From contig JAIRTL010000097.1 of NCBI GenBank assembly GCA_031254915.1, positions 1-64,000 on the forward strand: a stretch of 64,000 nucleotides of DNA, in the 5' to 3' direction. Position numbers and translations under genes: made by a program. The notes under the pieces are model-generated. The model did no database searches. It worked only from the letters and a program-made list of their open reading frames with translations, and was not told where the DNA came from. Positions 2,994 through 27,072 of the stretch are shown piece by piece (within the stretch, counting starts at the first letter, position 1; the number at the start of each line of letters is the position of its first letter). Origin of the DNA: Planctomycetota bacterium (GTDB taxonomy: Bacteria > Planctomycetota > SZUA-567).

Positions 2994-3131
2994 CGGCGTA
3001 TGCTTTTTTCAGTCGGGCGCGTCCGTTCCCCCACCCCGACCGCTTCCAGCGCCTTTGGCGAGGACGGGCAAATGAAAAAGGGGACTGCAAGGGCGCCGCG
3101 CGGCAACGCCCGGCCGGCAGCGGCCTTGGAA

Positions 3132-3214
3132 CCTCTCCGGATGGGACGGGATGGATATTGTCCCCCATTATTTTTCAATGAGTCCATCCCGGAAAGCGCC
3201 CCTATTCGGAGAGG
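3132..3214 (-). other. Nested inverted repeats just past the CheD-receiver stop codon
   Basis: Two nested stems are visible: an outer 8-bp pair (CCTCTCCG 3132-3139 with CGGAGAGG 3207-3214) and an inner 9-bp pair (CGGGATGGA 3147-3155 with TCCATCCCG 3183-3191). Inside these a further ATTG/CAAT pair closes an AT- and C-rich loop. The structure begins 3 nt after the stop codon of the minus-strand gene. It has no U-tract, so it may stabilise the 3-prime end rather than terminate. Confidence 0.5.
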
Positions 3215-3217
3215 CTC

Positions 3218-4162
3218 TTACTGGTTGGGCTTGAACATCATCTTGCGGACCACCTTGCCGGCGGCGTGTCTGATTTTCGGGATATACGCCTGCTGGACGA
3301 CGTCAAGCCCCTTGTAGAGGTGAAGCGTGTCCTTGTCGATCACGTCGACGGCGCCGTATTCGCGCGCCTTGGCGGCGACCTGCGACTGGTCCTTGGCGAT
3401 CGTGGAGCAGATGACCACCGGCTTCGGATAGTGCTGGGAAAGCGACTTGAGGAACTTGAGCCCGTCGAGTTTGGGCATGATGATGTCGAGGCTGATGACG
3501 TCCGGGTCGAGCTCGAGGATCTTGTCCCGCGCCTCGAAGGCGTCGCCGGCCTCGCCGCAGACCTCGAGGTCGCGCGTGCCGGAAATGGCCTGCTTGAGGA
3601 TCTTCCTGACCAGCGGCGAGTCGTCGACGACGAGGACCTTCGTCTTGCGGGTCGCCAGGTCGCGCCGCCGCGCCTCGAGGCGCGCGCCTTCCTCCGTCTT
3701 CTGGATCACTTTGACGACCACCCGGTTGGATGCGGTGTCGAAGTAGATGCGCCGGCCCGAGGTGCCGCCGACGTCCTCCTCGGTGATGGGGATGTTCTTC
3801 CTCTTGAGCATGCGGCGGGCCATGTCGATGTTCTTGAGCCCGATGTCGGAGGCGGCGCCGAGATGGCCGACAACCGCGCCGCCGCCGTAGATCTTCGCCG
3901 TCATCTTGCCGTTGGGATCGAGCTTCTGCATGAGCCAGACGATCGTCTCGATCGAGGTGTCGCCGTAACGGCCCTTGTCGGGGTCGCGCGCGCCCGGATT
4001 CTCGGCGAGGAGATAATGGTTCATGGCCGCGTGGGGTTTGGCCTCGTTCTTGAGGCATACGGCGACGCAACTGCCCAGCAGGGTCGCCATATTGCACGGA
4101 GCCCGCGAAACGTGATATTCGCCCGGCAGTAGAAAGACGCGATCGGGTCCATCGGCTGACAT
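3218..4162 (-). CDS. cheD: CheD deamidase fused to a CheB-type receiver domain
   Basis: 314 residues. The N-terminal part (about 8-155) is CheD, the chemoreceptor glutamine deamidase. It has the LGSCV motif with nucleophile Cys32, then MNHYL with His49 at the usual 17-residue distance, and Thr27. The KIYGGGAVVG and DIGLKNIDMAR stretches are also family features. Residues about 173-285 are a response-regulator receiver with acidic pair Asp180-Asp181, phospho-acceptor Asp226 (DIIMP) and Lys277. The receiver most resembles that of CheB (DDSPLVRKIL, LDGLKFLKSL), but the methylesterase domain is absent and the protein ends about 35 residues after the receiver. ATG at 4162 has GGAGGAAG upstream. 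No other chemotaxis gene is adjacent; a CheR-like gene lies 43 kb away. Confidence 0.87.
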   Translation of the reverse strand: MSADGPDRVFLLPGEYHVSRAPCNMATLLGSCVAVCLKNEAKPHAAMNHYLLAENPGARDPDKGRYGDTSIETIVWLMQKLDPNGKMTAKIYGGGAVVGHLGAASDIGLKNIDMARRMLKRKNIPITEEDVGGTSGRRIYFDTASNRVVVKVIQKTEEGARLEARRRDLATRKTKVLVVDDSPLVRKILKQAISGTRDLEVCGEAGDAFEARDKILELDPDVISLDIIMPKLDGLKFLKSLSQHYPKPVVICSTIAKDQSQVAAKAREYGAVDVIDKDTLHLYKGLDVVQQAYIPKIRHAAGKVVRKMMFKPNQ

Positions 4163-4471
4163 GGTTCTTCCTCCAGCAAGGCGTTTTCCACGCCGCGTGC
4201 GCGCCGCCTTTCCTCCCCTCCCGCGATGACGCGCCGGAGAGGCATTCTCCGATTCATGCCCGCGCCCGGAAGCGCCGGACGCGAGCCCATGAATAGACTG
4301 TCGGCGCCTTGAAACCGCGATTCCCGGACTGTGCGCGGCTGGCGGCGCGCCCGGGAAACGAACGAATGCGGAACAGGGCGGCTGCCACCCCCCATTCCCG
4401 CAATTTCCGGCCGCGCACGATATAATTCCCCGCTGGCGGCGCGGGCGAATCCATCGGCGGCGGCCGGGCGG
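4163..4471. other. Intergenic region carrying a repeat copy
   Basis: 309 bp between the SurA/PpiD-like gene and the CheD gene, both on the minus strand. The centre is repeat copy A2 (4299-4420). The remainder (4163-4298) is leader of the CheD gene, with a strong ribosome site at its end. A TATAAT string at 4421-4426 touches the repeat end on the plus strand, with no plus-strand gene to serve. Confidence 0.6.
4299..4420 (+). repeat. Repeat family A, long copy A2
   Basis: About 120 bp. Landmarks are TTGAAACCGCGATTCC, GGACTGTGCGCGGC, CCGGGAAACGAA, GCGGAACAGGGCG, CCCCCCATTCCC and a GCAATTTCCGGCCGCGC end. It is collinear with A3 on the plus strand and with A1 on the minus strand. Unlike those copies, it is antisense to the gene that follows it (CheD, minus strand). 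Confidence 0.7.
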
Positions 4472-6271
4472 TCAGGAACCGACGATATCCGGATTGACGC
4501 GGATCTCGCCCTTGCCCACCCGGTCCCAGAAGGTCAGGAACATGGCGTCGGTCGGCTGGATGCGGAACACGGGGCCGACGAAGGAGTCGATCCTGCCGGA
4601 GTCGCCGGAGCGGTCCATGCGGATGATCCCCTGGTAGCGGGCCTTGACGTCCGCCGCTTCGCCGTCGAATTCATCGCGGGTGGGGATGGCGCGGCCGGTG
4701 AGGACGCGGAGTTCCCAACCCTTTTCGCCGCTGGCGGCGTCGGCGTATTCGACCGGGCCGTACACCTCCCCGACGGCGAGCTTGCCGAATTCGTAGTCCG
4801 TGCCGCCCATCATCCGGCTATAGGGAAGCGTTTCCTCCGGGATGGCGCGGTACATGTCGGCGAATTCACCCTCCGGGAACCCGCCGGCCGCGGCGGCGGC
4901 GATGAAGTCGCGCACCCCGGAGGCGGTCTCCTCCGCCTTGTCCAGGGCGAGCTCGGCCACGCGTTCGCCGACCAGGTCGGACAGGGCGGCTTCATACAGA
5001 TCGGAACGGACCGCGCCGTCCCCGGCGTCGATGTCCGCCGGCCTGGACGGGGTGTAGTCGAGGAGTTTGAGGCGCAGGTAGCCTTCGGCGCCCTTCACCG
5101 GACGCATGGCGAGATTGAAGCCGTTCTTCCAGGATTCGATCGTCGTCGCCCGCTCCTCGTCCGCCATGCCGTCGATTTCATCGAGCGCGGCGGTGATTTC
5201 AGATCCGGGACCGAAGAGGGGGTCGGCCGCGAGCCGGGCGGCGGAGCGCGCGGACTCGCCCGTCGTTCCCGCCTTGACGCCGTACTTGGCGAGCTGGGTC
5301 AGCTTCGCCAGTTCCTCCGGGGACATCTCGCCGTTGGCGCGCAACTGCGGGTCGACGTCGATCGTCAGGTTCCGCAGGGCCGTCCGTTCGCGTTCGTTCG
5401 CGGAGAGCGCCTCGACGACGATGTCGCGGACGTTCTCGAAGGGGAGGTTGGCGAACATGGCGCGGTTCTGGTCGTAGAAGGAGCGGATCTCATCCTCCGA
5501 AAAGACGTGCGGCGCGGTTTCCGTCGCGTAGGGCAGGAGCACATAGGAGAAGCGCCAGGTCGCGGCGTCGCGGAAGCGGTCGTCGTCGCGGCGCGCAAGA
5601 ATGTAGTCGCGGACGAGGGTTTGCAGTTCCTCCGGGTCCTTGGCGGTGAATTCCGCCTTGGCCTGTTCCGACATGCCGGCGCTTTCCGGGGTGCGGATGC
5701 GCTTGAAGAGCGCCTGCGCCTTTTCGAGCGCGTAAATCCGGTAGGCGGAGTCCTCGGTGACGGCGACGGTGTTGTTGTCGACGTTGACGTAGCTGTTCAG
5801 GGTCATGAGATCCCTGACGCCGGCGAGGAATTCGGCCCGGGAAATCTGCAGGCGGCGGCAGATTTTCGTGACTTCGCCCTCGAGGGAGGAGGGGTCGTTG
5901 CGATAAGCGGTCGAGGTTATCGGGTGCGCGTTCTGGAGATAGGTGCCGACGATGGCGTCCGAGGCCTTGACGCCCGCCGCCTCCGCGTCCTTGATGACCG
6001 AATACGCCCAGATGTGCGCCCAGAGATCGCCCGTGGCGGCGGTGTCGGGGGCGCCGTTGAAATAGAAGGGCATCTCGCCCATGGCGGCGCGCATGCGCAG
6101 GCGGAAGCGTTCGTAATCGCGATAATTCAACGATTCCCGGCCGATTTTCGCGATCTCGACGTTCTGATGGGCCTGGAAGCCGCCCACGCCCCAGACGAGC
6201 GCGAAGGAGGGAATGATGATGATGCTGACGATGATGAAAACCCACTTCTGATTGCGCCGAAACATATCCAT
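4472..6271 (-). CDS. SurA/PpiD-like membrane-anchored periplasmic folding factor
   Basis: 599 residues. A short basic N-terminus (MDMFRRNQK) precedes one membrane segment (about residues 10-28), then a long soluble region exported to the periplasm. The N-terminal half (about 35-200) has the pattern of the SurA/PpiD N-terminal chaperone domain: a short strand IAKIGRESLNYRDYERF followed by helices. The C-terminal half, with a GELAVGEVYGPVEY-like stretch (FGKLAVGEVYGPVEY) around residues 520-540, resembles a parvulin rotamase fold in degenerate form. I see no complete parvulin active site, so chaperone rather than isomerase activity is the safer reading. ATG at 6271 was preferred to an upstream in-frame ATG at 6361 because the membrane anchor then starts normally. 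It appears to be a single-gene unit. Confidence 0.65.
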   Translation of the reverse strand: MDMFRRNQKWVFIIVSIIIIPSFALVWGVGGFQAHQNVEIAKIGRESLNYRDYERFRLRMRAAMGEMPFYFNGAPDTAATGDLWAHIWAYSVIKDAEAAGVKASDAIVGTYLQNAHPITSTAYRNDPSSLEGEVTKICRRLQISRAEFLAGVRDLMTLNSYVNVDNNTVAVTEDSAYRIYALEKAQALFKRIRTPESAGMSEQAKAEFTAKDPEELQTLVRDYILARRDDDRFRDAATWRFSYVLLPYATETAPHVFSEDEIRSFYDQNRAMFANLPFENVRDIVVEALSANERERTALRNLTIDVDPQLRANGEMSPEELAKLTQLAKYGVKAGTTGESARSAARLAADPLFGPGSEITAALDEIDGMADEERATTIESWKNGFNLAMRPVKGAEGYLRLKLLDYTPSRPADIDAGDGAVRSDLYEAALSDLVGERVAELALDKAEETASGVRDFIAAAAAGGFPEGEFADMYRAIPEETLPYSRMMGGTDYEFGKLAVGEVYGPVEYADAASGEKGWELRVLTGRAIPTRDEFDGEAADVKARYQGIIRMDRSGDSGRIDSFVGPVFRIQPTDAMFLTFWDRVGKGEIRVNPDIVGS

Positions 6272-6600
6272 TGACACGGCCGGACCCTCGTTCCTGAAAA
6301 AGGCGAAAGAGAAACCGCCGAAACCGCCTTCAAGGGGTTCCGGCCGGAAGACTGCCCTCAAGAGTACCGGATTTCGGCGCTCGTTTCAATGTAAAAACGG
6401 GAGTCCGTTCGCCGACGGCGGAGACGGGAAGTCCTTCTCCAATGCCTTTTTCTCCCCCGGGGGCTTCGCCCCGCCGGGTTTTCGATGAATTTTCCGCCGC
6501 GCCGCCGGGCGGGAAACGCGTCCGCCGCCTCACATCCATCGTCCGCGGCGGCGATCCGAAGGCATGGAACCGCTTCGATTGCGCCGAAGCCCATGGCCGC
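6272..6600. other. 329-bp intergenic stretch
   Basis: Lies between the start of the SurA/PpiD-like gene and the stop of the GH57 gene, both on the minus strand. A GC hairpin (CGGGGGCTTCGCCCCG, near 6458-6473) followed on the plus strand by CCGGGTTTT is the only structure seen. There is no credible ORF, repeat or clear promoter. Confidence 0.45.
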
Positions 6601-9300
6601 TCAGCGCATCGCCCGTTTCACCGCGGCCAGAAGCCGACGGTCGAGCGCCTCCCCGGCGAAGCCGAGTTCCGTTCCCGCCCTTCTCAGGCGGTCTCCGGGT
6701 TCGCCGGTGACCATGCCGGCGGGATCGGGGGCGATGAGGTCGGCGACCGGATCGGCGAGCAGGTCCCAGAAGGCGCGGTCGACGCCGACGTCGTGCGGGA
6801 AGATGAACCCTCCCCGGCGCGCGAAGGCGAGGAGTTCGGGCAGCGGCAACAGGGAGAGGGCCGCCGGGCCCGGCATGTCGGTACGCATGAGCCGGGAGCG
6901 GATCGAGGCAAGCGCCTGCCCGAGCGCGAGCGCCAGCGGGCTGGCGGACGGATGGCCGAGGGCGCGATTAACCCGGCTCTGCGGCGCGAGCCAGGCGCTT
7001 CCGTCGTCAAGGGTGCGCGTTTCAAGGCGTTGCAGCCAACCCGTCTCCGGCGTTTTTCCGAGGAAATGGATCAGTTCGCGGAAGGAGAGCGCGAGATGGC
7101 GCGCCGGCCGGTCCGGGGCGACCCGGAAATCAAGTTCCTCCGCCGGCTTTCTCGCCTCGCGCACCGCGAAAAGGGCTTCGTCGTCGAACTGGAGCGTCCG
7201 AATGGCGTCGAGGACGATCGATTCCATCCGGTGCTCGACCGCGAACGCCGCTCCGGCGCGGATCGGGTCAGGCGGCGCGTCGCCGCTTGAGAGCGCTTCC
7301 CGCTGGAGGGCGATCGCTTCGTCGCCGAGCGGGACCAGGCGTTCGAAATGCGCGCGCAATCCCGGCGCGGCGCGCCGGCGATGGAGCGCGATCGCGACCG
7401 GAGCCGGCAGCCGTTCGAGCGGGATGCGGTTCAGCCTCATCGCGTCCAGGAACTCTTCCGCCGACATCCCCGACAGGCGCTCGGCCCAGTCGAGGCCGCT
7501 GTACGGGCCGGGCGGTGGCGTGGCGCCGTCGGCGAAAACGTCGTTCAGCCGCGATTCGACAGTTCCCAGCATGACGCCGGGAGCGTCGGAGAGCGACGCG
7601 AACCAGGCGCAGGCGAGGACGCGGTCGAGGAGGCGGTCATGGGCGGCGAGCCAACCCCAGGCCCGGCCATGACCGTCCCTGCGGATCAGGCTTTCCGGGA
7701 GGATCTTCCAGGAGACGCCGCCGACGGGAAGCTCCGCCGCCTGGCAGGCGGCGAGGGCGGCGAGGATGTCCCGGTCGTCATGGCGGCCGGGAACGGCGAG
7801 GCGGTCGAAGACGTCGCCGCCGTCCTCGAAGCGGGGGATGTTCGACTTGGCCAGGGACAGCGTGTCGCGGAGAAGCGCCGTCAGGTCCTCGTGCGCGTAG
7901 GGTTGCGCGAGTTCCGCCGCCCGCAGGGCGTAGCGCATGTTCTGCACCGGTTCGATCCCGGAGAGTTCGTCGAAAAACCAGCCGCAGGACGCATACATGA
8001 GTATCGCGTTCCTGTCGGCTTCGAGAAGCGCCCAAATCCTCCCCGCCTCTTCCGGGGTCGGTCGGCGTTGGGCGTGGCGGTCCAGAAAGGCTTTGCGCGT
8101 TTCCCTGTCCGGCCGGAGAACGACCCGGATATACTCGTTTCGCGCCTCGAGGACGTCCCGGAGAAGCGCGCCCAGCTCGCGGCGCACCGCGTCCCGGACG
8201 CGCGCGCGCAGTGCGTCGAAGGCGAGGCGGAGCGGCCGCCGCCAGGCCTGATTCCAGTCCGGCCGCTGCCGGGCGGAACAGCCGCAGTCGCGGAACCAGC
8301 GGCCGACGCCGTGCCGGCAGCTCCAGGACGAGCCCATCTTGTCTTCGCCGCCCCAGAGCTTGACCTCCCACGTCGGCGGCGCGAGACGGATGCAGTCGCC
8401 GGCGGAGACGGCGGCGAAGCCGTGCGCCGGGGCGATGGCGGAGAAGAGGCGCGACAGCGCCTCCTGGCCGCCTTTTTCATGGTGCCCGTAGATTTCGCCG
8501 TCCGTGACGATGGAGACGATCTGCGGTCCGGGCTCGTCCGGGTCGAAGCAGTCGAGGAGTTCGCGAGCGAGGTCGTCCGGGCGGTTGAGGATGTGGTCGA
8601 AGCTGACCTTGAGATTGAGGCCGGGCGTGTAGAAAATGACGTCGAGATGGCGGTTGAAATGGGTGCGGCCGCCGCCGTCCGTTTCAAAAAGCCTGTATAC
8701 GCGCTTTGTGTCTATCGACCCCATGGAAGCCTCGCGCCAGACCTGCTCGCCGAAGGGCCTGGCCTTGCTCGCCTGGTGGGGTGACAGGATGACGAATTTG
8801 ACGCCGTGGTCCACAAGCGCCCGCACCGTCTCCTTGTCGATGCCGCATTCCGACAGCCACATCCCGTCGGGGGAAAACCCGAAGCGGTGATGGAATTCCT
8901 TCAGCCCCCAAAGGATTTGGGTGTGTCGGTCGCGGGCGTCGCAGAGGGGGAGCATGGCGTGGCCGTAGGCTTGGGCGAGGGCGGAGGAGGGGTTGACGCG
9001 CGCCGCTTCCTCGATGTCGCGGATAAGCCCCGGACATTCGCTGTCGGCCCAGGAAAGAAGGGTCGGACCGAAATTGAAGGACATATGGGGATAATTGTTG
9101 TACAAATCGACGATCCCGCCGTCGGCGTCGTAAATTCGGCTCCTCCCCATGGGCAGGTAGCATTCGGCGGCGATGCGTTCGTTCCAATCGCCCCAGGGCG
9201 CGGCCGAGGGCTGGGGATCGACGCCTCCCGTCCACGGGTTCTCGCGCGGCGGCTGGTAGAAATGGCCGTGGACCATGAGGAGATACGGTGTTTTCGGCAT
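6601..9300 (-). CDS. Glycoside hydrolase family 57 protein with DUF3536-type C-terminus
   Basis: 899 residues, no signal peptide, so cytoplasmic. The N-terminal catalytic barrel has GH57 region 1 at residues 11-18 (HGHFYQPP), the nucleophile Glu151 in MWLSECGID, and the acid/base Asp267 in VTDGEIYGHH. The histidine pair of GH57 follows. GH57 enzymes are retaining alpha-glucan hydrolases, branching enzymes or 4-alpha-glucanotransferases. The long helical C-terminus, with many Arg/Ala helices and no recognisable catalytic motif, matches the DUF3536 architecture. Its substrate is not established; glycogen or maltodextrin turnover is the family expectation. ATG at 9300 has AAAGGGGAG upstream. It diverges from ispE, with a 152-bp shared promoter region. 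On the minus strand a TATACT (9391-9396) could be its -10. Confidence 0.85.
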   Translation of the reverse strand: MPKTPYLLMVHGHFYQPPRENPWTGGVDPQPSAAPWGDWNERIAAECYLPMGRSRIYDADGGIVDLYNNYPHMSFNFGPTLLSWADSECPGLIRDIEEAARVNPSSALAQAYGHAMLPLCDARDRHTQILWGLKEFHHRFGFSPDGMWLSECGIDKETVRALVDHGVKFVILSPHQASKARPFGEQVWREASMGSIDTKRVYRLFETDGGGRTHFNRHLDVIFYTPGLNLKVSFDHILNRPDDLARELLDCFDPDEPGPQIVSIVTDGEIYGHHEKGGQEALSRLFSAIAPAHGFAAVSAGDCIRLAPPTWEVKLWGGEDKMGSSWSCRHGVGRWFRDCGCSARQRPDWNQAWRRPLRLAFDALRARVRDAVRRELGALLRDVLEARNEYIRVVLRPDRETRKAFLDRHAQRRPTPEEAGRIWALLEADRNAILMYASCGWFFDELSGIEPVQNMRYALRAAELAQPYAHEDLTALLRDTLSLAKSNIPRFEDGGDVFDRLAVPGRHDDRDILAALAACQAAELPVGGVSWKILPESLIRRDGHGRAWGWLAAHDRLLDRVLACAWFASLSDAPGVMLGTVESRLNDVFADGATPPPGPYSGLDWAERLSGMSAEEFLDAMRLNRIPLERLPAPVAIALHRRRAAPGLRAHFERLVPLGDEAIALQREALSSGDAPPDPIRAGAAFAVEHRMESIVLDAIRTLQFDDEALFAVREARKPAEELDFRVAPDRPARHLALSFRELIHFLGKTPETGWLQRLETRTLDDGSAWLAPQSRVNRALGHPSASPLALALGQALASIRSRLMRTDMPGPAALSLLPLPELLAFARRGGFIFPHDVGVDRAFWDLLADPVADLIAPDPAGMVTGEPGDRLRRAGTELGFAGEALDRRLLAAVKRAMR

Positions 9301-18752: not shown

Positions 18753-19046
18753 GTGACGATATACGAATCTCTCCACAATATTCCCATCGATCGCCTGGCC
18801 GAAGCGGCGGGCGGCAAGGCGCGGCTGACGTACCTTATCTCCCAGCGCCTCCGCGCGGTCAACAACGGCGCCCAGCTTCTGGTGGAACGTCAACCCGGCG
18901 AGGCGCTTCTCGCCGCCGTGTGCCGGGAAGTCATGGAAAAGAAGATCTGGCTCGAAATCCCCGAGCCGGAGGAAACGCCGGCCGAGGAGGAGGAGTTCGA
19001 CCTTCTCGCCCTCTCCTCCGAGGAATCGGGCGGACTCGAGTTGTAG
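18753..19046 (+). CDS. rpoZ: DNA-directed RNA polymerase omega subunit (RpoZ-like)
   Basis: 97 residues starting at GTG 18753, with AAGGAG 9 nt upstream; a TTG directly before it is an alternative. The stretch RLAEAAGGKARLTYLISQRL, then NNGAQLLVE, corresponds to the conserved omega core that clamps the beta-prime subunit (usual form: A...GNRF.L...A..RARQL..G..P.V). A helix EVMEKKIWLEIPE follows, and the protein ends in an acidic tail rich in Glu. The omega core is divergent but the order and length fit. It has its own promoter and terminator. An alternative is an uncharacterised small acidic protein, but the core pattern makes that less likely. Confidence 0.72.
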   Translation: MTIYESLHNIPIDRLAEAAGGKARLTYLISQRLRAVNNGAQLLVERQPGEALLAAVCREVMEKKIWLEIPEPEETPAEEEEFDLLALSSEESGGLEL

Positions 19047-19076
19047 CGCCGGTTTTGCATCGCCTTCCTTCACACG

Positions 19077-19100
19077 ACCCGGCCGCGAGGCCGGGTTTTT
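19077..19100 (+). terminator. Intrinsic terminator of rpoZ
   Basis: Stem ACCCGGCC/GGCCGGGT with a GCGA tetraloop, followed by a T-run (TTTTTC). It begins 31 bp after the rpoZ stop. Confidence 0.9.
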
Positions 19101-19137
19101 CATGGCATCGGCGCCGGCCGGACGCACGACGCCGGCA

Positions 19138-19166
19138 TGACGATTCCGGACCGTGAACGGCATGGA
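19138..19166 (+). repeat. Repeat family A, short copy
   Basis: TGACGATTCCGGACCGTGAA followed by CGGCATGGA. The same motif occurs at 13739 and 15759. Lies between the rpoZ terminator and the sugar operon promoter. Confidence 0.55.
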
Positions 19167-19209
19167 CATGAGCGCCGGGTTTTGTAAATGCTTTTCCGGC
19201 GTTTTCCTG

Positions 19210-19239
19210 TTGACTTCCCGGATTTAACCGTTTTAAATC
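19210..19239 (+). promoter_or_regulatory. Promoter overlapped by operator-like inverted repeat 1
   Basis: TTGACT (19210-19215), a 17-base spacer and TTAAAT (19233-19238). The spacer and -10 are covered by the perfect inverted repeat GATTTAA-CCGTT-TTAAATC (19221-19239). A repressor bound there would block RNA polymerase. The central CG in an AT-rich dyad is reminiscent of LacI-family operators, but no regulator gene is adjacent. Confidence 0.6.
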
Positions 19240-19269
19240 ATGGATACGGCACGACACGAGAACGTTATC

Positions 19270-19286
19270 ATATGCCTGTTGCATAT
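19270..19286 (+). promoter_or_regulatory. Operator-like inverted repeat 2
   Basis: ATATGC-CTGTT-GCATAT, a 6-bp inverted repeat with the same 5-nt spacer length and similar spacer sequence (CTGTT against CCGTT) as the repeat at 19221-19239. It lies about 25 nt past the predicted transcript start. Possibly a second binding site for the same regulator. Confidence 0.45.
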
Positions 19287-19471
19287 CAAATTGCGGCATC
19301 CCTGATTCGCATGACGCATTTCCCCGCCCGCTCCATGGGCGAACGCATTGACCATACACGGCGTCGCCCCTCGAGGGGACGGCTGCGCCGAACGGTACGA
19401 GATTGCGCGTCGCGTCGTTCATCAACCCATGGAACCGCTTCCCCGCGGTTCCCAGACGACAGGGGAGAAAC

Positions 19472-20464
19472 ATGGCAAAACGTCCAGTCACCATATTCAC
19501 CGGGCAGTGGGCCGACCTGACCTTCGAGACGGTCTGCCGGAAAATGTCCGCCTTCGGCTACGACGGGCTCGAGATCGCCACCTGGGGCGACCACTTCGAC
19601 GTCGGCAAGGCCGCCTCCGATCCCTCCTACGCCGCCGGCCGCAAGGAACTCCTCAAGAAGTACAACCTGGGCTGCTGGTCCATCGGCTCCCACCTCATCG
19701 GCCAGTGCGTCGCCTCCCTCTACGATCCGCGCTACGACGGCTTCTTGCCCCCGCACATGAAGGGCAAGGGCGACGAGATGCGGCAATGGGCGGCCGGGGA
19801 GATGAAGCAGGTCGCGCGCGGCGCCAGGAACATGGGCGTCAAGGTGGTCACCGGCTTCACCGGCAGCCCGATCTGGAATTACTGGTACAGCTTCCCGCAG
19901 ACGTCGCAAAAACAGATCGACGACGCCTTCAAGGAAGTGGTGGACAGGTGGACGCCCATCCTCGACGTCTTCGACGAATGCGGCGTCAAATTCGCGCTCG
20001 AGGTTCATCCGACGGAAATCGCCTTCGACTTCCATTCCACGGAAAAGCTCCTCAAGGCCTTCGACTACCGCGAAACGTTCGGCCTCAACTTCGACCCGAG
20101 CCATCTTTACTGGCAGGGCGTGAATCCGGCCCTCTTCATCCGCGAGTTCGGCTGCCGCATTTATCACGTCCACGTCAAGGACGCCGTCGTCACCCTCGAC
20201 GGCAAAGCCGGCATTCTTGGCGGCCACATCGAATTCGGCGACACCCGGCGCGGCTGGAACTTCGTTTCCCCAGGCCACGGCGGCGTGAATTTCGACGCCA
20301 TCGTCCGCGAGCTCAACGCCGTCAAGTACGACGGTCCGATGTCGGTGGAATGGGAAGACAGCGGCATGGACCGCGAGTTCGGCGCCAGGGAGGCCTGCGA
20401 CTTCGTGAAGAAGTTCGACTATCCGCCGTCCGACGTCGCCTTCGACGACGCGCTCGCCCAATGA
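19472..20464 (+). CDS. Sugar (phosphate) isomerase/epimerase, xylose-isomerase-like TIM barrel
   Basis: 330 residues, no signal, so cytoplasmic. It belongs to the AP-endonuclease-2/xylose-isomerase-like superfamily that includes IolE, IolI and D-tagatose 3-epimerase. Candidate metal ligands are Glu in FALEVHPTEIAFD, Asp-His in LNFDPSHLYWQG, His in IYHVHVKD and Glu in SVEWEDSGMD. ATG at 19472 has AGGGGAG upstream. It is the first gene after the regulated promoter and heads a run with a complete sugar ABC importer, 163 bp before its ATPase gene. A role in the first step of catabolism of the imported sugar is likely, but the sugar is unknown. Confidence 0.85.
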   Translation: MAKRPVTIFTGQWADLTFETVCRKMSAFGYDGLEIATWGDHFDVGKAASDPSYAAGRKELLKKYNLGCWSIGSHLIGQCVASLYDPRYDGFLPPHMKGKGDEMRQWAAGEMKQVARGARNMGVKVVTGFTGSPIWNYWYSFPQTSQKQIDDAFKEVVDRWTPILDVFDECGVKFALEVHPTEIAFDFHSTEKLLKAFDYRETFGLNFDPSHLYWQGVNPALFIREFGCRIYHVHVKDAVVTLDGKAGILGGHIEFGDTRRGWNFVSPGHGGVNFDAIVRELNAVKYDGPMSVEWEDSGMDREFGAREACDFVKKFDYPPSDVAFDDALAQ

Positions 20465-20627: not shown

Positions 20628-22181
20628 ATGCCTGAAGGAACCGGCCAGGCTCTCGCCGTCAAGGGCGTGTCCAAGGACTTTTCGGGGGTGCGGGTGCTCT
20701 CGGACGTTTCGCTCTCGGTGGGGCCGGGCGAGGTTCTCGGCGTCATCGGCGAGAACGGCGCGGGGAAGTCGACGCTGCTGAAGATCGTCGGCGGCGTCTA
20801 TTCCCCGACCGGGGGCGAGGTCTGGATCGGCGGGACAAGGCTCGCCGAGTACGATCCGCAGGCGGCGCGCAGCCTCGGCGTCACCCTGATCCCCCAGGAA
20901 TTCAACCTCGTCGGCGACCTCGCCGTTTTTGAAAACATTTTCCTCGGCCAGGAACTGCGACAGCGCTTCGCGCTCCTCGATAAGCGCCGGATGGCGAAGA
21001 CGTCCTCGGACCTGCTCGCCCGCCTCAAGGCGGACGACATCGATCCGTGGACCAAGGTCGACGCCCTGTCCGCCGCGCAGAAACAGATGGTGGAGATCGC
21101 CAAGGCGCTGGTGAACGAGAACTCCCGCGTCATCATCATGGACGAGCCGACCACCGTCCTCAACCAGGCGGAGGTGGAGGTGCTCTTCAACGCCATCCGC
21201 GATCTCAAGGCGCACGGCGTCGCCGTCATTTACGTTTCGCACAAGCTGCGGGAGGTCAAGGCGATCTGCGACCGGGTGCTTGTCCTCCGCGACGGCAATC
21301 CGGTCGGCGTCGGCCTGGCCGCGAACCTCACCGAGCGCCAGATGGCCGCCAGCATGGTCGGCCGCGAACTCAACCAGGTCTTTCCGGAAAAAGCCGAGCC
21401 GATGGCGGAGACGGCGCTGAGGGTCGAGGGCCTGTCGGCGCCGGGACTGCTCCGCGACCTGTCCTTCGAGGTCAGGAAGGGCGAGGTGTTCGGCCTCGCC
21501 GGGCTGATGGGGGCGGGGCGGACCGAAACGGCGGAGGCGCTCATGGGCCTGATGAAGCGCGCCCGGGGCAGGGTCAGCGTGTACGGCGAGGAAATGCCCC
21601 TCGGCAATCCGGCGCGCGCGGTCGCCGCGGGGCTGGCGTACCTGTCCGAGGACCGGCAGGGCAAGGGGATCCTCGTCAAGTCGGACATTCTCGAGAACGT
21701 CACCCTTTCGAGCATGTCGGAGTATGTCTCGCGCTGGCTCATCGACAACCGCAAGCGGCGGCGGGCGGCGGAACGATACGTCGAGGAGTTTTCCATCCGC
21801 GCCGCCGACCTCGCCGCGAACCTCGAATTCTTCTCCGGCGGCAACCAGCAAAAAGTGTCCCTCGCCAAGTGCCTCGACACGCGGCCGAAAATCATCATTT
21901 TCGACGAGCCGACGCGCGGCATAGACATTCGCGCCAAGGCCGACATCTACACCTTCATCCAGACGCTCGCCCGGGACGGCCTCGCCTGCATTCTCATTTC
22001 CAGCGAGCTCGAGGAAATCATCGGCCTCTGCCGCCGCGTCGCGGTCCTGCACGAAGGCGAGATCACCGGGATCCTCGAAGGGGACGAAATCAACGAGGAG
22101 GAAATCATGCTCCACGCCACCAAACTCAAGACAAGCGGCAGCCGGGCGCCGGCGGCCGCGGGCGCGGAGGGCGGCCGATGA
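20628..22181 (+). CDS. Sugar ABC transporter ATP-binding protein, two fused ATPase domains (RbsA/XylG type)
   Basis: 517 residues with two ABC domains in tandem, the arrangement of ribose/xylose/galactose (CUT2) importers. Domain 1 has Walker A GENGAGKST and Walker B VIIMDEPTT, but its signature is LSAAQKQMVE rather than LSGGQ. Domain 2 has the degenerate Walker A GLMGAGRTE expected of this class, the signature FSGGNQQKVSLAK and Walker B IIIFDEPTRGID. AAGGAACC precedes the ATG. Its stop overlaps the permease start by ATGA. It energises monosaccharide import at the inner membrane. Confidence 0.93.
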   Translation: MPEGTGQALAVKGVSKDFSGVRVLSDVSLSVGPGEVLGVIGENGAGKSTLLKIVGGVYSPTGGEVWIGGTRLAEYDPQAARSLGVTLIPQEFNLVGDLAVFENIFLGQELRQRFALLDKRRMAKTSSDLLARLKADDIDPWTKVDALSAAQKQMVEIAKALVNENSRVIIMDEPTTVLNQAEVEVLFNAIRDLKAHGVAVIYVSHKLREVKAICDRVLVLRDGNPVGVGLAANLTERQMAASMVGRELNQVFPEKAEPMAETALRVEGLSAPGLLRDLSFEVRKGEVFGLAGLMGAGRTETAEALMGLMKRARGRVSVYGEEMPLGNPARAVAAGLAYLSEDRQGKGILVKSDILENVTLSSMSEYVSRWLIDNRKRRRAAERYVEEFSIRAADLAANLEFFSGGNQQKVSLAKCLDTRPKIIIFDEPTRGIDIRAKADIYTFIQTLARDGLACILISSELEEIIGLCRRVAVLHEGEITGILEGDEINEEEIMLHATKLKTSGSRAPAAAGAEGGR

Positions 22182-23203
22182 TTCCCACCCGTTCGCGCTT
22201 CAACCCCGCGTCCGTGGCGCCGTACGCCGCGCTTCTCATCCTGCTCGCGATCGGCGCCCTCACGTCGGACCATTTTCGCCAGGTCAGGAACCTCCTCAAC
22301 ATCACCCGCCAGGTGTCCTACACCGGCATCATAGCGCTGGGCATGACCTTCGTGATCATCGCCGGCGGCATCGACCTGTCGGTGGGCAGCGCCGTCGCCT
22401 TCATAGGCGGCGTCATCATCATGTCCCTGAACCGGTTTTTCGAGACGCACCCGGGCCAGGAGACGCTGTGCTTTTTCCTGGCGCTCGGCGTCGGTCTGGC
22501 ACTCGGCCTCGCGAGCGGCGTCGTGTCCGGCTTCCTCATCACCAAATTCAACATGGCGGCGTTCATCGCCACCCTCGGCTTCATGGGCATTTTCCGCTCC
22601 CTCGCCCTCTACACCGGCAACGGCGGCGAGTTCCGCGTCGCCGGCGGCATCAGCGTTTTCCGGAAGTTCGGCACCGGCATGGTCCTGGACGTGCCGATCC
22701 CGTCGTGGATCTTCTTCATTCTCGCCGCGCTTTTCGGGGTCGTCCTCAACTGGACGAAATTCGGTCGCTACGTCTGCGCCGTGGGTTCGAACGAGAAGGT
22801 CGCGGCCTACGCGGCGGTGCGCGTCGGCAGGGTGCGGACCCTCACCTACGTCATCCTCGGCGGCACGGTGGCGCTGTCCGCGTTCCTGCTCGCCGGCCGC
22901 ATGAATTCGATCAACTCGACCAACGCCGGCAGCCTGTACGAGCTCGACTCCATCGCCGCCGTCGCCATCGGCGGCACCTCCATGGCGGGCGGCGTCGGCT
23001 CGATGGCCGGCACCGTCGCCGGGGCGCTGATCCTGGGCATGATCAACAACATGCTCAACATGTGGGGCGTTTCCGCCTATCTCCAGGGCACGGTGAAGGG
23101 GCTTATCATCGTCCTCGCCGTCCTCATCCAGCGCCCCGAGTTCCAGGACATGGTCAAGTCGGGCGTCATGCGCGGGGTCGACGGCGCCCGCGGGGAAAAA
23201 TGA
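22178..23203 (+). CDS. Sugar ABC transporter permease (RbsC type)
   Basis: 341 residues with 8-10 membrane segments. CUT2 permease signatures are LGMTFVIIAGGIDLSVGS near residues 47-65 and AVAIGGTSMAGGVGSMAGTVAGA in the second half, the latter being the ATPase-contact loop. The start overlaps the ATPase gene by ATGA. Substrate-binding protein gene follows after 49 bp. In this class one permease forms a homodimeric pore. Confidence 0.93.
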   Translation: MIPTRSRFNPASVAPYAALLILLAIGALTSDHFRQVRNLLNITRQVSYTGIIALGMTFVIIAGGIDLSVGSAVAFIGGVIIMSLNRFFETHPGQETLCFFLALGVGLALGLASGVVSGFLITKFNMAAFIATLGFMGIFRSLALYTGNGGEFRVAGGISVFRKFGTGMVLDVPIPSWIFFILAALFGVVLNWTKFGRYVCAVGSNEKVAAYAAVRVGRVRTLTYVILGGTVALSAFLLAGRMNSINSTNAGSLYELDSIAAVAIGGTSMAGGVGSMAGTVAGALILGMINNMLNMWGVSAYLQGTVKGLIIVLAVLIQRPEFQDMVKSGVMRGVDGARGEK

Positions 23204-23252: not shown

Positions 23253-24200
23253 ATGAAGAAATTCGCACTGGTGTTGTCGTTGTTCATGTTGTGCCTCGCC
23301 ATGGGCGTCGCCGGCGCCGGCCAGAAGATGAAGATCGGCATCTCCACGCCGACGGCCGACCACGGCTGGACCGGCGGCATCGTCTGGTGGGCGCAGAAGG
23401 CGGTCGAGGACTTCTCCGGGAAGTACCCCGACGCCGAGTTCCTGCTGGTCACGGCCGACAACCCGGCCAAGCAGATCGCCGACATCGAGGACCTGGTGAT
23501 CCAGGGCATCAAGGCGCTTGTCGTCCTGCCGCACGAACCGGCGCCCCTCACGCCCACGCTCAACCAGATCAAGGCGGACGGCGTGTTCATGGTCGTCGTC
23601 GACCGCGTCATCCAGGAGCTCGACCGCGACGTTTACGTCGCCGGCGACAACCCCGGCCTCGGCCGCGTGTCCGGCGAGTTCCTCGCCAGGGAAATGGGCG
23701 GCGCCCCCTGCGAGATCGTGGTCATGACCGGCATCCCCTGCGACGTCGACACGCTCCGCGTCGAGGCGTTCGACGAGGTGATGAAGAAGCACCCCAACAT
23801 CAAGATCCTCGAATCGCAGCCCGCCAACTGGAGCACCCAGAAGGGCCTCGAACTCATGGAGAACTTCCTCCAGAAGTATCCGAAGATCGACGCCGTCTGG
23901 TGCCAGGACGACGACGTCCTCAAGGGCGTGATGCAGGCCTACGAGGAAACCGGCCGCGGCGACATCAAGCTCGTTCTCGGCGGCGCGGGCTCCAAGGACA
24001 TCATCAAGATGATCATCGACGGCCACCCGCTGGTGCGCGGCACCGCCACCTACCCGCCGAAGATGATCTACGACGGCGTCGAACTCGCCGCCGAACGCCT
24101 GCTCGCCGGCAAGGCGATCGACAAGGTCGTCATCGCGCCGTCGGTCATGGTCACCAAGGAAAACGCGCGGGACTACTACTATCCGGACAGCCCGTTCTGA
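23253..24200 (+). CDS. Sugar ABC transporter substrate-binding protein (RbsB type)
   Basis: 315 residues with a cleavable signal (MKKFALVLSLFMLCLAMGV, cut near AGA-GQ). Peripla_BP_4-type receptor: KIGISTPTADHGWTGGIVWW at the N-terminal lobe, then TADNPAKQIADIEDLVIQGI and VVVDRVIQELDRDVYVAGDN, and a QDDDVLKGVMQAYEE hinge. These aromatic and charged positions are used for monosaccharide binding, but I cannot name the sugar. ATG 23253 has TAGGAGGAAGG upstream. Last gene of the operon, which is unusual as the receptor gene often comes first. A strong terminator follows. Confidence 0.92.
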   Translation: MKKFALVLSLFMLCLAMGVAGAGQKMKIGISTPTADHGWTGGIVWWAQKAVEDFSGKYPDAEFLLVTADNPAKQIADIEDLVIQGIKALVVLPHEPAPLTPTLNQIKADGVFMVVVDRVIQELDRDVYVAGDNPGLGRVSGEFLAREMGGAPCEIVVMTGIPCDVDTLRVEAFDEVMKKHPNIKILESQPANWSTQKGLELMENFLQKYPKIDAVWCQDDDVLKGVMQAYEETGRGDIKLVLGGAGSKDIIKMIIDGHPLVRGTATYPPKMIYDGVELAAERLLAGKAIDKVVIAPSVMVTKENARDYYYPDSPF

Positions 24201-25617: not shown

Positions 25618-27072
25618 TCATCGCCGCGCCGGCGGGAACTCTTTCTCCGCCCACAGCCCCTTCGTCGCCTCGAGGCCTTCGGCCATGTCCTTGAACCAGC
25701 CCAGGGTCACGGCCTGGACGAGCGCGTTCCCGAGGGTGGTGGCGTTCGGCGATCCGGTGCGGACGGGAAGTCCGCAGACGTCGGCGAGCCATTGGTTCAT
25801 CAGGTCGTTGGCCGCGCCGCCGCCGACGACGAGGATTTCCTCCACCTCCTTGCCGAGCAAACCCGACAGGACGCGGACAAGCCGCGTCGTCTTGTGCGCG
25901 AGCCCCTGATAGACGAGGGCGACCAGCTTGCCGCGCGTCGCCTTGGCGGGGTCGAGGCCGGCGAGTTCCATAATCATGCGCGCCATGTCCGGCGGCGTCC
26001 GCAGGCGGGGGTCGTCGATGGGGAAGTCGAGGTCCGGACGGAACTCCGGCGCGGCGAGGGCGTTCATTTCCTCCCATGTCATCTGCCTGCCGCCGTCCTC
26101 GCGCGACCATTCGCGCCTGAGCGCCTGCACCGGGAGGCTGCCCATGTTGATGACGTTCAAAACCGCCCCGTCCACGCCGCCGACGTTTGAAAAACCGCTT
26201 GCGAAGACGTCCGAATCGACGAGCGCCTCCGGCAGATAGCCGCCCATGCACCACCAGGTTCCGGCCGAGACGATGAACGCGGTCCGGTCTTTCCCGACCG
26301 GCGCGCCCGCGAAGGCGCAGGCGGTGTCGTGGTTCGGCGGGATCAAGACCTTGAAGCGGGGCAGGCCGAGCCGTTCGGCAAGGCCGGCGTGGCAAACTCC
26401 GAGTTCGCCGCCCGTCTGCCTGAACGGCGGCATTTTTTCCCGGGGCAGGCCGAGACGCTCGAACACTTCCGCCGTCCAGTCCCGGCGCATGACGCTTCCG
26501 AGATGGCCGGTCGTCGACCAGGTGTATTCGGCCGCCGCCTCGCCGCAGAACCAGTAATGGTAGAGGGAGGGGAGGGGCATGAAGCATTTCGCCTCGGCGA
26601 CCACGCCGGGCTGGCGGGTGTTCATCCAGTGGATCTGGTTGACGACGAGGAAGTCGTCCGGATAGGTGCCGGTGAGGTCGAAGCGCTCCCGGCCGGGCAT
26701 GATCCTGTTCACCTCCTCCCGCGCCTCGCGCCAGCGGGCGTCGTGCGCGATGACGGAGGGAAAGAGGGTGTCGCCGCGCCGCGAAATCCACACGCCGTCC
26801 GATCCCCAGCCGTCGAGCCCGAGGGAAACGATCTCGAGGTCGGAGCGCTTCCCGAGCCCGGCAAGGCCCTCGCACAGACCGGCGTTGATGGCGCAGAGGT
26901 CCCAATACAGGGTGCGCGTCGGCGTGCCGTCGACGGGAAGGTGGTATTCGCGCGCGAAATGGGAAAACTCGTGCGCCGATTCAAGCGCGTAGCCGTCCCG
27001 GCCGCGCGAAAACACGGAAACGCGGCCGCCGGAACCGCCGACGTCGCCGACCGCGATAGCCTCTCTTTTCAT
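25618..27072 (-). CDS. FGGY-family carbohydrate kinase, rhamnulokinase-like
   Basis: 484 residues of the FGGY kinase fold. The N-terminal phosphate loop is GDVGGSGGRVSVF (canonical rhamnulokinases have DLGASSGRVM). The mid-region has LGLDGWGSDGVW and the C-terminal ATP site is VVGGGAANDLMNQWLADVCG followed by LPVRTGSPNATTLGNALVQ, close to the rhamnulokinase pattern. It likely phosphorylates a keto-methylpentose or ketopentose in the cytoplasm. The usual partners (rhamnose isomerase, aldolase) are not adjacent, so L-rhamnulose as substrate is only an analogy. The sugar ABC importer lies 1.4 kb away on the opposite strand. Confidence 0.85.
   Translation of the reverse strand: MKREAIAVGDVGGSGGRVSVFSRGRDGYALESAHEFSHFAREYHLPVDGTPTRTLYWDLCAINAGLCEGLAGLGKRSDLEIVSLGLDGWGSDGVWISRRGDTLFPSVIAHDARWREAREEVNRIMPGRERFDLTGTYPDDFLVVNQIHWMNTRQPGVVAEAKCFMPLPSLYHYWFCGEAAAEYTWSTTGHLGSVMRRDWTAEVFERLGLPREKMPPFRQTGGELGVCHAGLAERLGLPRFKVLIPPNHDTACAFAGAPVGKDRTAFIVSAGTWWCMGGYLPEALVDSDVFASGFSNVGGVDGAVLNVINMGSLPVQALRREWSREDGGRQMTWEEMNALAAPEFRPDLDFPIDDPRLRTPPDMARMIMELAGLDPAKATRGKLVALVYQGLAHKTTRLVRVLSGLLGKEVEEILVVGGGAANDLMNQWLADVCGLPVRTGSPNATTLGNALVQAVTLGWFKDMAEGLEATKGLWAEKEFPPARR

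Follow-up and report, generated by a model that had tools for sequence, protein, structure and literature searches.

Two short inverted repeats (dyads) precede a four-gene sugar-uptake operon in the window analyzed here, a 64,000-nt stretch of a planctomycete genome. We assign a probability of about 50% to the reading that they lie in an ordinary promoter region, where dyad 1 might be an operator and dyad 2 is more likely to be incidental. The region would hold at most one plausible regulatory site because the arms of the two dyads differ, a relative lacks both dyads, and the genome contains no near-exact copy of either one. Judging from the position of the −10 element, transcription would start near position 19245, past the terminator that closes the upstream unit. 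Dyad 1, which overlies the −10 element, is plausible as a candidate operator, where RNA polymerase would be blocked by a dimeric regulator whose gene lies in another part of the genome; dyad 2, located in the leader and with arms unlike those of dyad 1, is probably incidental or else might be the site of another factor. The features of the region are listed in Table 1.

Table 1 Features of the sugar operon region (positions in the window).
Feature	Position	Strand	Reading or match
Upstream gene, RNA polymerase omega-like (weak)	18753..19046	+	NCBIfam PRK00392
Intrinsic terminator (likely) of the upstream gene, ACCCGGCC-GCGA-GGCCGGGT-TTTT	19077..19100	+	
Promoter candidate, TTGACT-17-TTAAAT	19210..19238	+	Read by eye
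Dyad 1, GATTTAA-CCGTT-TTAAATC	19221..19239	.	Candidate operator over the −10
Dyad 2, ATATGC-CTGTT-GCATAT	19270..19286	.	Probably incidental
Leader dyad/hairpin, GGAACCGC-TTCCCC-GCGGTTCC	19431..19452	+	Just before the Shine-Dalgarno
TIM-barrel isomerase/epimerase/dehydratase-like protein	19472..20464	+	PF01261, E 4.7e-40
Sugar ABC importer ATPase, RbsA/XylG type	20628..22181	+	Below all equivalog cut-offs shown
Sugar ABC importer permease, RbsC type	22178..23203	+	PF02653; RbsC best, under cut-off
Sugar-binding protein, RbsB type	23253..24200	+	PF13407; RbsB best, under cut-off

Both dyads are located where the first-pass annotation had placed them, with perfect arms of 7 nt (dyad 1) and 6 nt (dyad 2), and with 5-nt spacers in each case. 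They are odd in length (19 and 17 nt, 48 bp apart center to center), sit between the likely terminator of the upstream gene and the operon, and end 232 and 185 nt, respectively, before the start codon at 19472. The claim that the first dyad overlaps the −10 of a promoter agrees with our examination by eye, in which the hexamers are TTGACT (19210–19215) and TTAAAT (19233–19238) and dyad 1 covers the −10 together with most of the promoter spacer; a stricter consensus scan of 18800–19600, whose rule calls for A as the second base of the −10, reported none.

The gene content behind this promoter-like site likewise fits the description of an isomerase followed by an ABC importer, with a PF01261 gene and three genes of the RbsABC type; the isomerase-like protein is weakly similar to IolE (61.7 bits, compared with a cut-off of 290). 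The omega-like gene on the other side matches PRK00392 at E 2.2e-4 (21.1 bits, cut-off 58) and no Pfam family. The terminator stretch (19060–19105) folds at −19.3 kcal/mol (z −3.0); the terminator scan did not list 19077–19100, the T-run rule being narrowly missed. A rhamnulokinase-like FGGY kinase (25618–27072; 178 bits against an equivalog cut-off of 528) is convergent to the operon. As had been suggested, there appears to be no regulator gene nearby: no DNA-binding regulator family was found in the 37 of the 43 predicted window genes that were scanned (a few of which had no Pfam match). Near homologous genes (79 loci), home-made profiles detected LacI (5), DeoR (2), ROK (6, some of which may be kinases), and GntR (1) ORFs, in 5, 2, 4, and 1 loci, respectively; no single regulator family is thus consistently linked.

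The chance expectation for such dyads was estimated from 3000 dinucleotide shuffles of the 425-nt intergenic region. Arms of at least 7 nt with a spacer of 5 nt occur in 3.3% of the shuffles, and with any spacer of 3–10 nt, in 25%. The latter value fits the somewhat unlikely alternative that the AT-rich promoter contains both palindromes by chance and that the operon is either unregulated or regulated via other sites, such as the CG-centered GAGAACGTTATC (19258–19269) or GGAACCGCTTCC (19431–19442). Further imperfect CG-centered palindromes within the same region also speak for this alternative, as do the absence of near copies and the lack of conservation of either dyad (see below). What argues against chance is the co-occurrence of two dyads: a pair with arms of 7 and 6 nt, spacers of one length, and starts separated by no more than 60 nt was found in 0.5% of the intergenic shuffles, and in 0.1% with the spacer fixed at 5 nt. 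For a 120-nt piece selected to surround the dyads, 5000 shuffles yield 0.08% and 0.02%, respectively. Among 105 overlapping AT-rich 120-nt pieces drawn from 243,031 bases of the 2.75-Mb genome of the same organism, 6 contained at least one dyad with a 5-nt spacer (N5 dyad), and only the piece with the two dyads contained two. The pair is unusual, and these figures point beyond chance, though the feature was singled out post hoc from the 64-kb window. The same rarity counts against our preferred reading and for two operators of one repressor.

The first-pass annotation had, indeed, interpreted the dyads as matched operators, and correctly described their arms as unlike and their spacers as nearly alike: the arms (ATTTAA and ATATGC) agree in 3 of 6 positions and the spacers (CCGTT and CTGTT) in 4 of 5. 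Compared with random pairs from the 108 N5 dyads of the genome, arm agreement at least this good is found in 25%, equal spacer agreement in 2.4%, and both jointly in 0.9%; the last value is at odds with our preferred reading. A dimer bound to the arms is not expected to read the spacer base by base, and the likeness of the spacers is, therefore, no evidence for a common repressor, contrary to the initial interpretation. With only three of the six arm positions in agreement, matched operators of one repressor are not supported, and no shared half-site, the mark of such an operator pair, was found in the arms. The matched-pair reading is weak: to the disagreement of the arms are added the lack of near copies, the absence of the dyads from regulator genes, and their absence from a relative. 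In its most specific form, in which a single unlinked repressor would bind both dyads, 48 bp apart center to center, through the degenerate half-site ATWTRM, we consider it unlikely.

The genome itself provides some evidence on both sides. Exact matches to the joint consensus ATWTRM-N5-KYAWAT number 4 in the genome, compared with 1 when the consensus is reversed as a control; by construction, the two dyads account for 2 of the 4. Dyad 2 (ATATGC-N5-GCATAT), when up to 2 mismatches are allowed, has 33 places, itself included, compared with 15 for the control. Both excesses favor one repressor over our reading. Against one repressor, the two further consensus places, one intergenic on contig C42 (between the ORFs 3111–6407 and 6930–7607) and one on C90, at a predicted ORF's 3′ end, have no importer beside them that is evident by eye among predicted ORFs. 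Dyad 1 at up to 3 mismatches has 22 places, itself included, and the reversed control has 20. For each dyad, the next best place in the genome has 2 mismatches. The search for additional sites near sugar genes that had been proposed as a check yielded no copy with fewer than 2 mismatches and consensus places without an evident importer.

The possibility that the dyads are sites at regulator promoters of the same genome was rejected. Neither is present upstream of any of the 22 candidate regulator genes (400 nt covered per gene, 239 nt for one; genome 87% complete), where the best matches have 5 mismatches for dyad 1 and 3 for dyad 2, and this argues against the one-repressor reading as well. 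The candidates comprise 10 LacI, 7 GntR-model (3 above the cut-off, several DeoR-like by eye), and 5 ROK-model matches (some may be sugar kinases); within the limits of these models and this 87% complete genome, the dyads recur neither at a regulator gene nor at regulon members. Roughly 230 nt ahead of the matched stretch in L123 (G000:C56), upstream of a DeoR-like gene, there is a separate 25-nt dyad with 10-nt arms, CGATCATATT-GCGCG-AATATGATCG.

Operators of the GntR and ROK types consist of inverted half-sites about 5 nt apart, with short odd spacers. The window dyads resemble them in this spacing and differ in that they match no known half-site; neither dyad was found upstream of the GntR- or ROK-model matches in the genome. 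In a LacI-family survey (PMC4052901, Front Microbiol 2014), even palindromes account for 1251 of the 1303 motifs, a central CG pair is present in 1173, and 72% of the regulators autoregulate, local ones more often. By comparison, the window dyads are LacI-operator-like as palindromes at the promoter of a sugar-use operon and unlike in being odd; neither is an even palindrome with a central CG. A CG-centered reading of dyad 1 is weaker: counted by hand, 4 of the 6 inner pairs are present, below the scan threshold of 5 of 6.

Relatives were represented by 16 genomes of the family, including that of the window organism; one of the 15 others (G001) belongs to the same genus. G001 retains the operon order, with 92% identity for the isomerase, 84% for the ATPase, 90% for the permease, and 91% for the binding protein. 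Lack of conservation in relatives was one of the outcomes that the first-pass annotation had named as refuting its reading, and a one-repressor pair would be expected to be conserved in close relatives; by alignment, dyad scan, and DNA search, both dyads are absent upstream of the G001 operon. This result comes from one congeneric genome, and the turnover of regulatory sites is rapid. Strong conservation between the G001 upstream region and the window is confined to the vicinity of the start codon. The DNA search with 19180–19470 in the 16 genomes, self-matches aside, produced one 25-nt match in G001, at 19445–19469, and one in G015, also 25 nt long, at 19317–19341, both clear of the dyads. 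G005 encodes the same four genes with one further ORF directly upstream, and the region upstream of that operon (L137 2251–3720) contains neither a perfect N5 dyad with arms of at least 6 nt nor a GTGYNCGNRCAC site.

The G001 operon promoter, TTGACA-17-TACAGT by eye, carries instead two CG-centered 12-mers, GTGCACGAGCAC and GTGTACGCACAC, 57 bp apart, which fit the LacI-family operator pattern of PMC4052901. The GTGYNCGNRCAC pattern occurs at 9 places in G001 compared with 3 for the control, and 4 of the 9 form two close pairs, one at the sugar operon (L005 244–312) and a second, with 44 bp between its sites, ahead of a LacI-family gene (G001:C199:6866-7888; sites at L171 8003–8058). The two promoters align with a score of 72, attained by 0 of 2000 shuffles. 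Because the paired GTGYNCGNRCAC sites and similar promoters are common to the operon and the LacI-family gene, the G001 operon is probably controlled by this unlinked repressor. The LacI gene itself precedes an apparent sugar ABC operon (by eye, predicted ORFs), the ATPase ORF of which aligns with the ABC ATPase loci. Given the two sites per promoter in G001, double operators are a plausible design in the window as well, which is a point in favor of one repressor there.

In the genome of the window organism, GTGYNCGNRCAC has 13 places compared with 5 for the control, none of them on the window contig (C79) and none paired. The G001 repressor has no match there at E ≤ 1e-20, which in a genome 87% complete does not prove its absence; 8 of the 10 LacI proteins of this genome align with it at 24–30% identity, and the other 2 produce no alignment at E ≤ 1e-5. 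A regulatory difference between the two congeneric species is likely. Tentatively, and short of even odds, these planctomycetes could wire the same operon differently, G001 via the unlinked LacI repressor and two CG-centered sites common to the repressor's promoter, and the window species, in which the repressor is unmatched and the dyads are different, via another regulator. The regulatory region, an ordinary one in an uncultured planctomycete, thus offers an example on which the rewiring of promoters among close relatives can be tested.

We considered and rejected the idea that GGCACGACAC, near 19250 in the window, is a decayed operator of the LacI type, the similarity of the window promoter to the G001 operon promoter being within chance: as high a score is reached by 20% of shuffles, by 1107 of 12,077 background pieces, and by 65 of the 461 pieces matched for GC content. 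The window promoter is somewhat similar to the G001 lacI promoter (0.15% of shuffles; 4 of 12,077 pieces, 1 of 461 GC-matched), a resemblance that may serve as a weak lead.

The inferred position of dyad 2 within the transcribed leader, where its arms pair in the minimum-energy fold, raises the question of whether the dyads work as RNA structure; this is highly improbable. The arms are unpaired in the centroid fold, the leader as a whole folds no better than shuffles (z −0.79), and the inferred transcription start falls downstream of dyad 1. The same z value, together with the lack of an Rfam match above the cut-off (two weak ones fall below it), led us to reject a riboswitch or structured leader. 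The leader dyad before the Shine-Dalgarno (GGAACCG...CGGTTCC) is retained in G001 in its arms, along with the Shine-Dalgarno stretch, with a changed loop. In each of the two species the minimum-energy fold shows it as paired, but neither stretch has an advantage over its shuffles in folding (z −0.20 and 0.26). The leader dyad also contains the LacI-like GGAACCGCTTCC, similar to GGAACCGGTTCC located before a LacI gene on C20 (L109).

A repeat of about 100 bp is dispersed in G001 (L005 1–110 and 5299–5390; L171 8181–8279), with matches that are 78–98% alike, many of them partial, and one 83-nt match in contig C13 of the window genome (L182 3489–3570). This repeat includes the inverted repeat AATCAAAC-GTTTGATT and is found upstream of both the operon and the lacI promoters.
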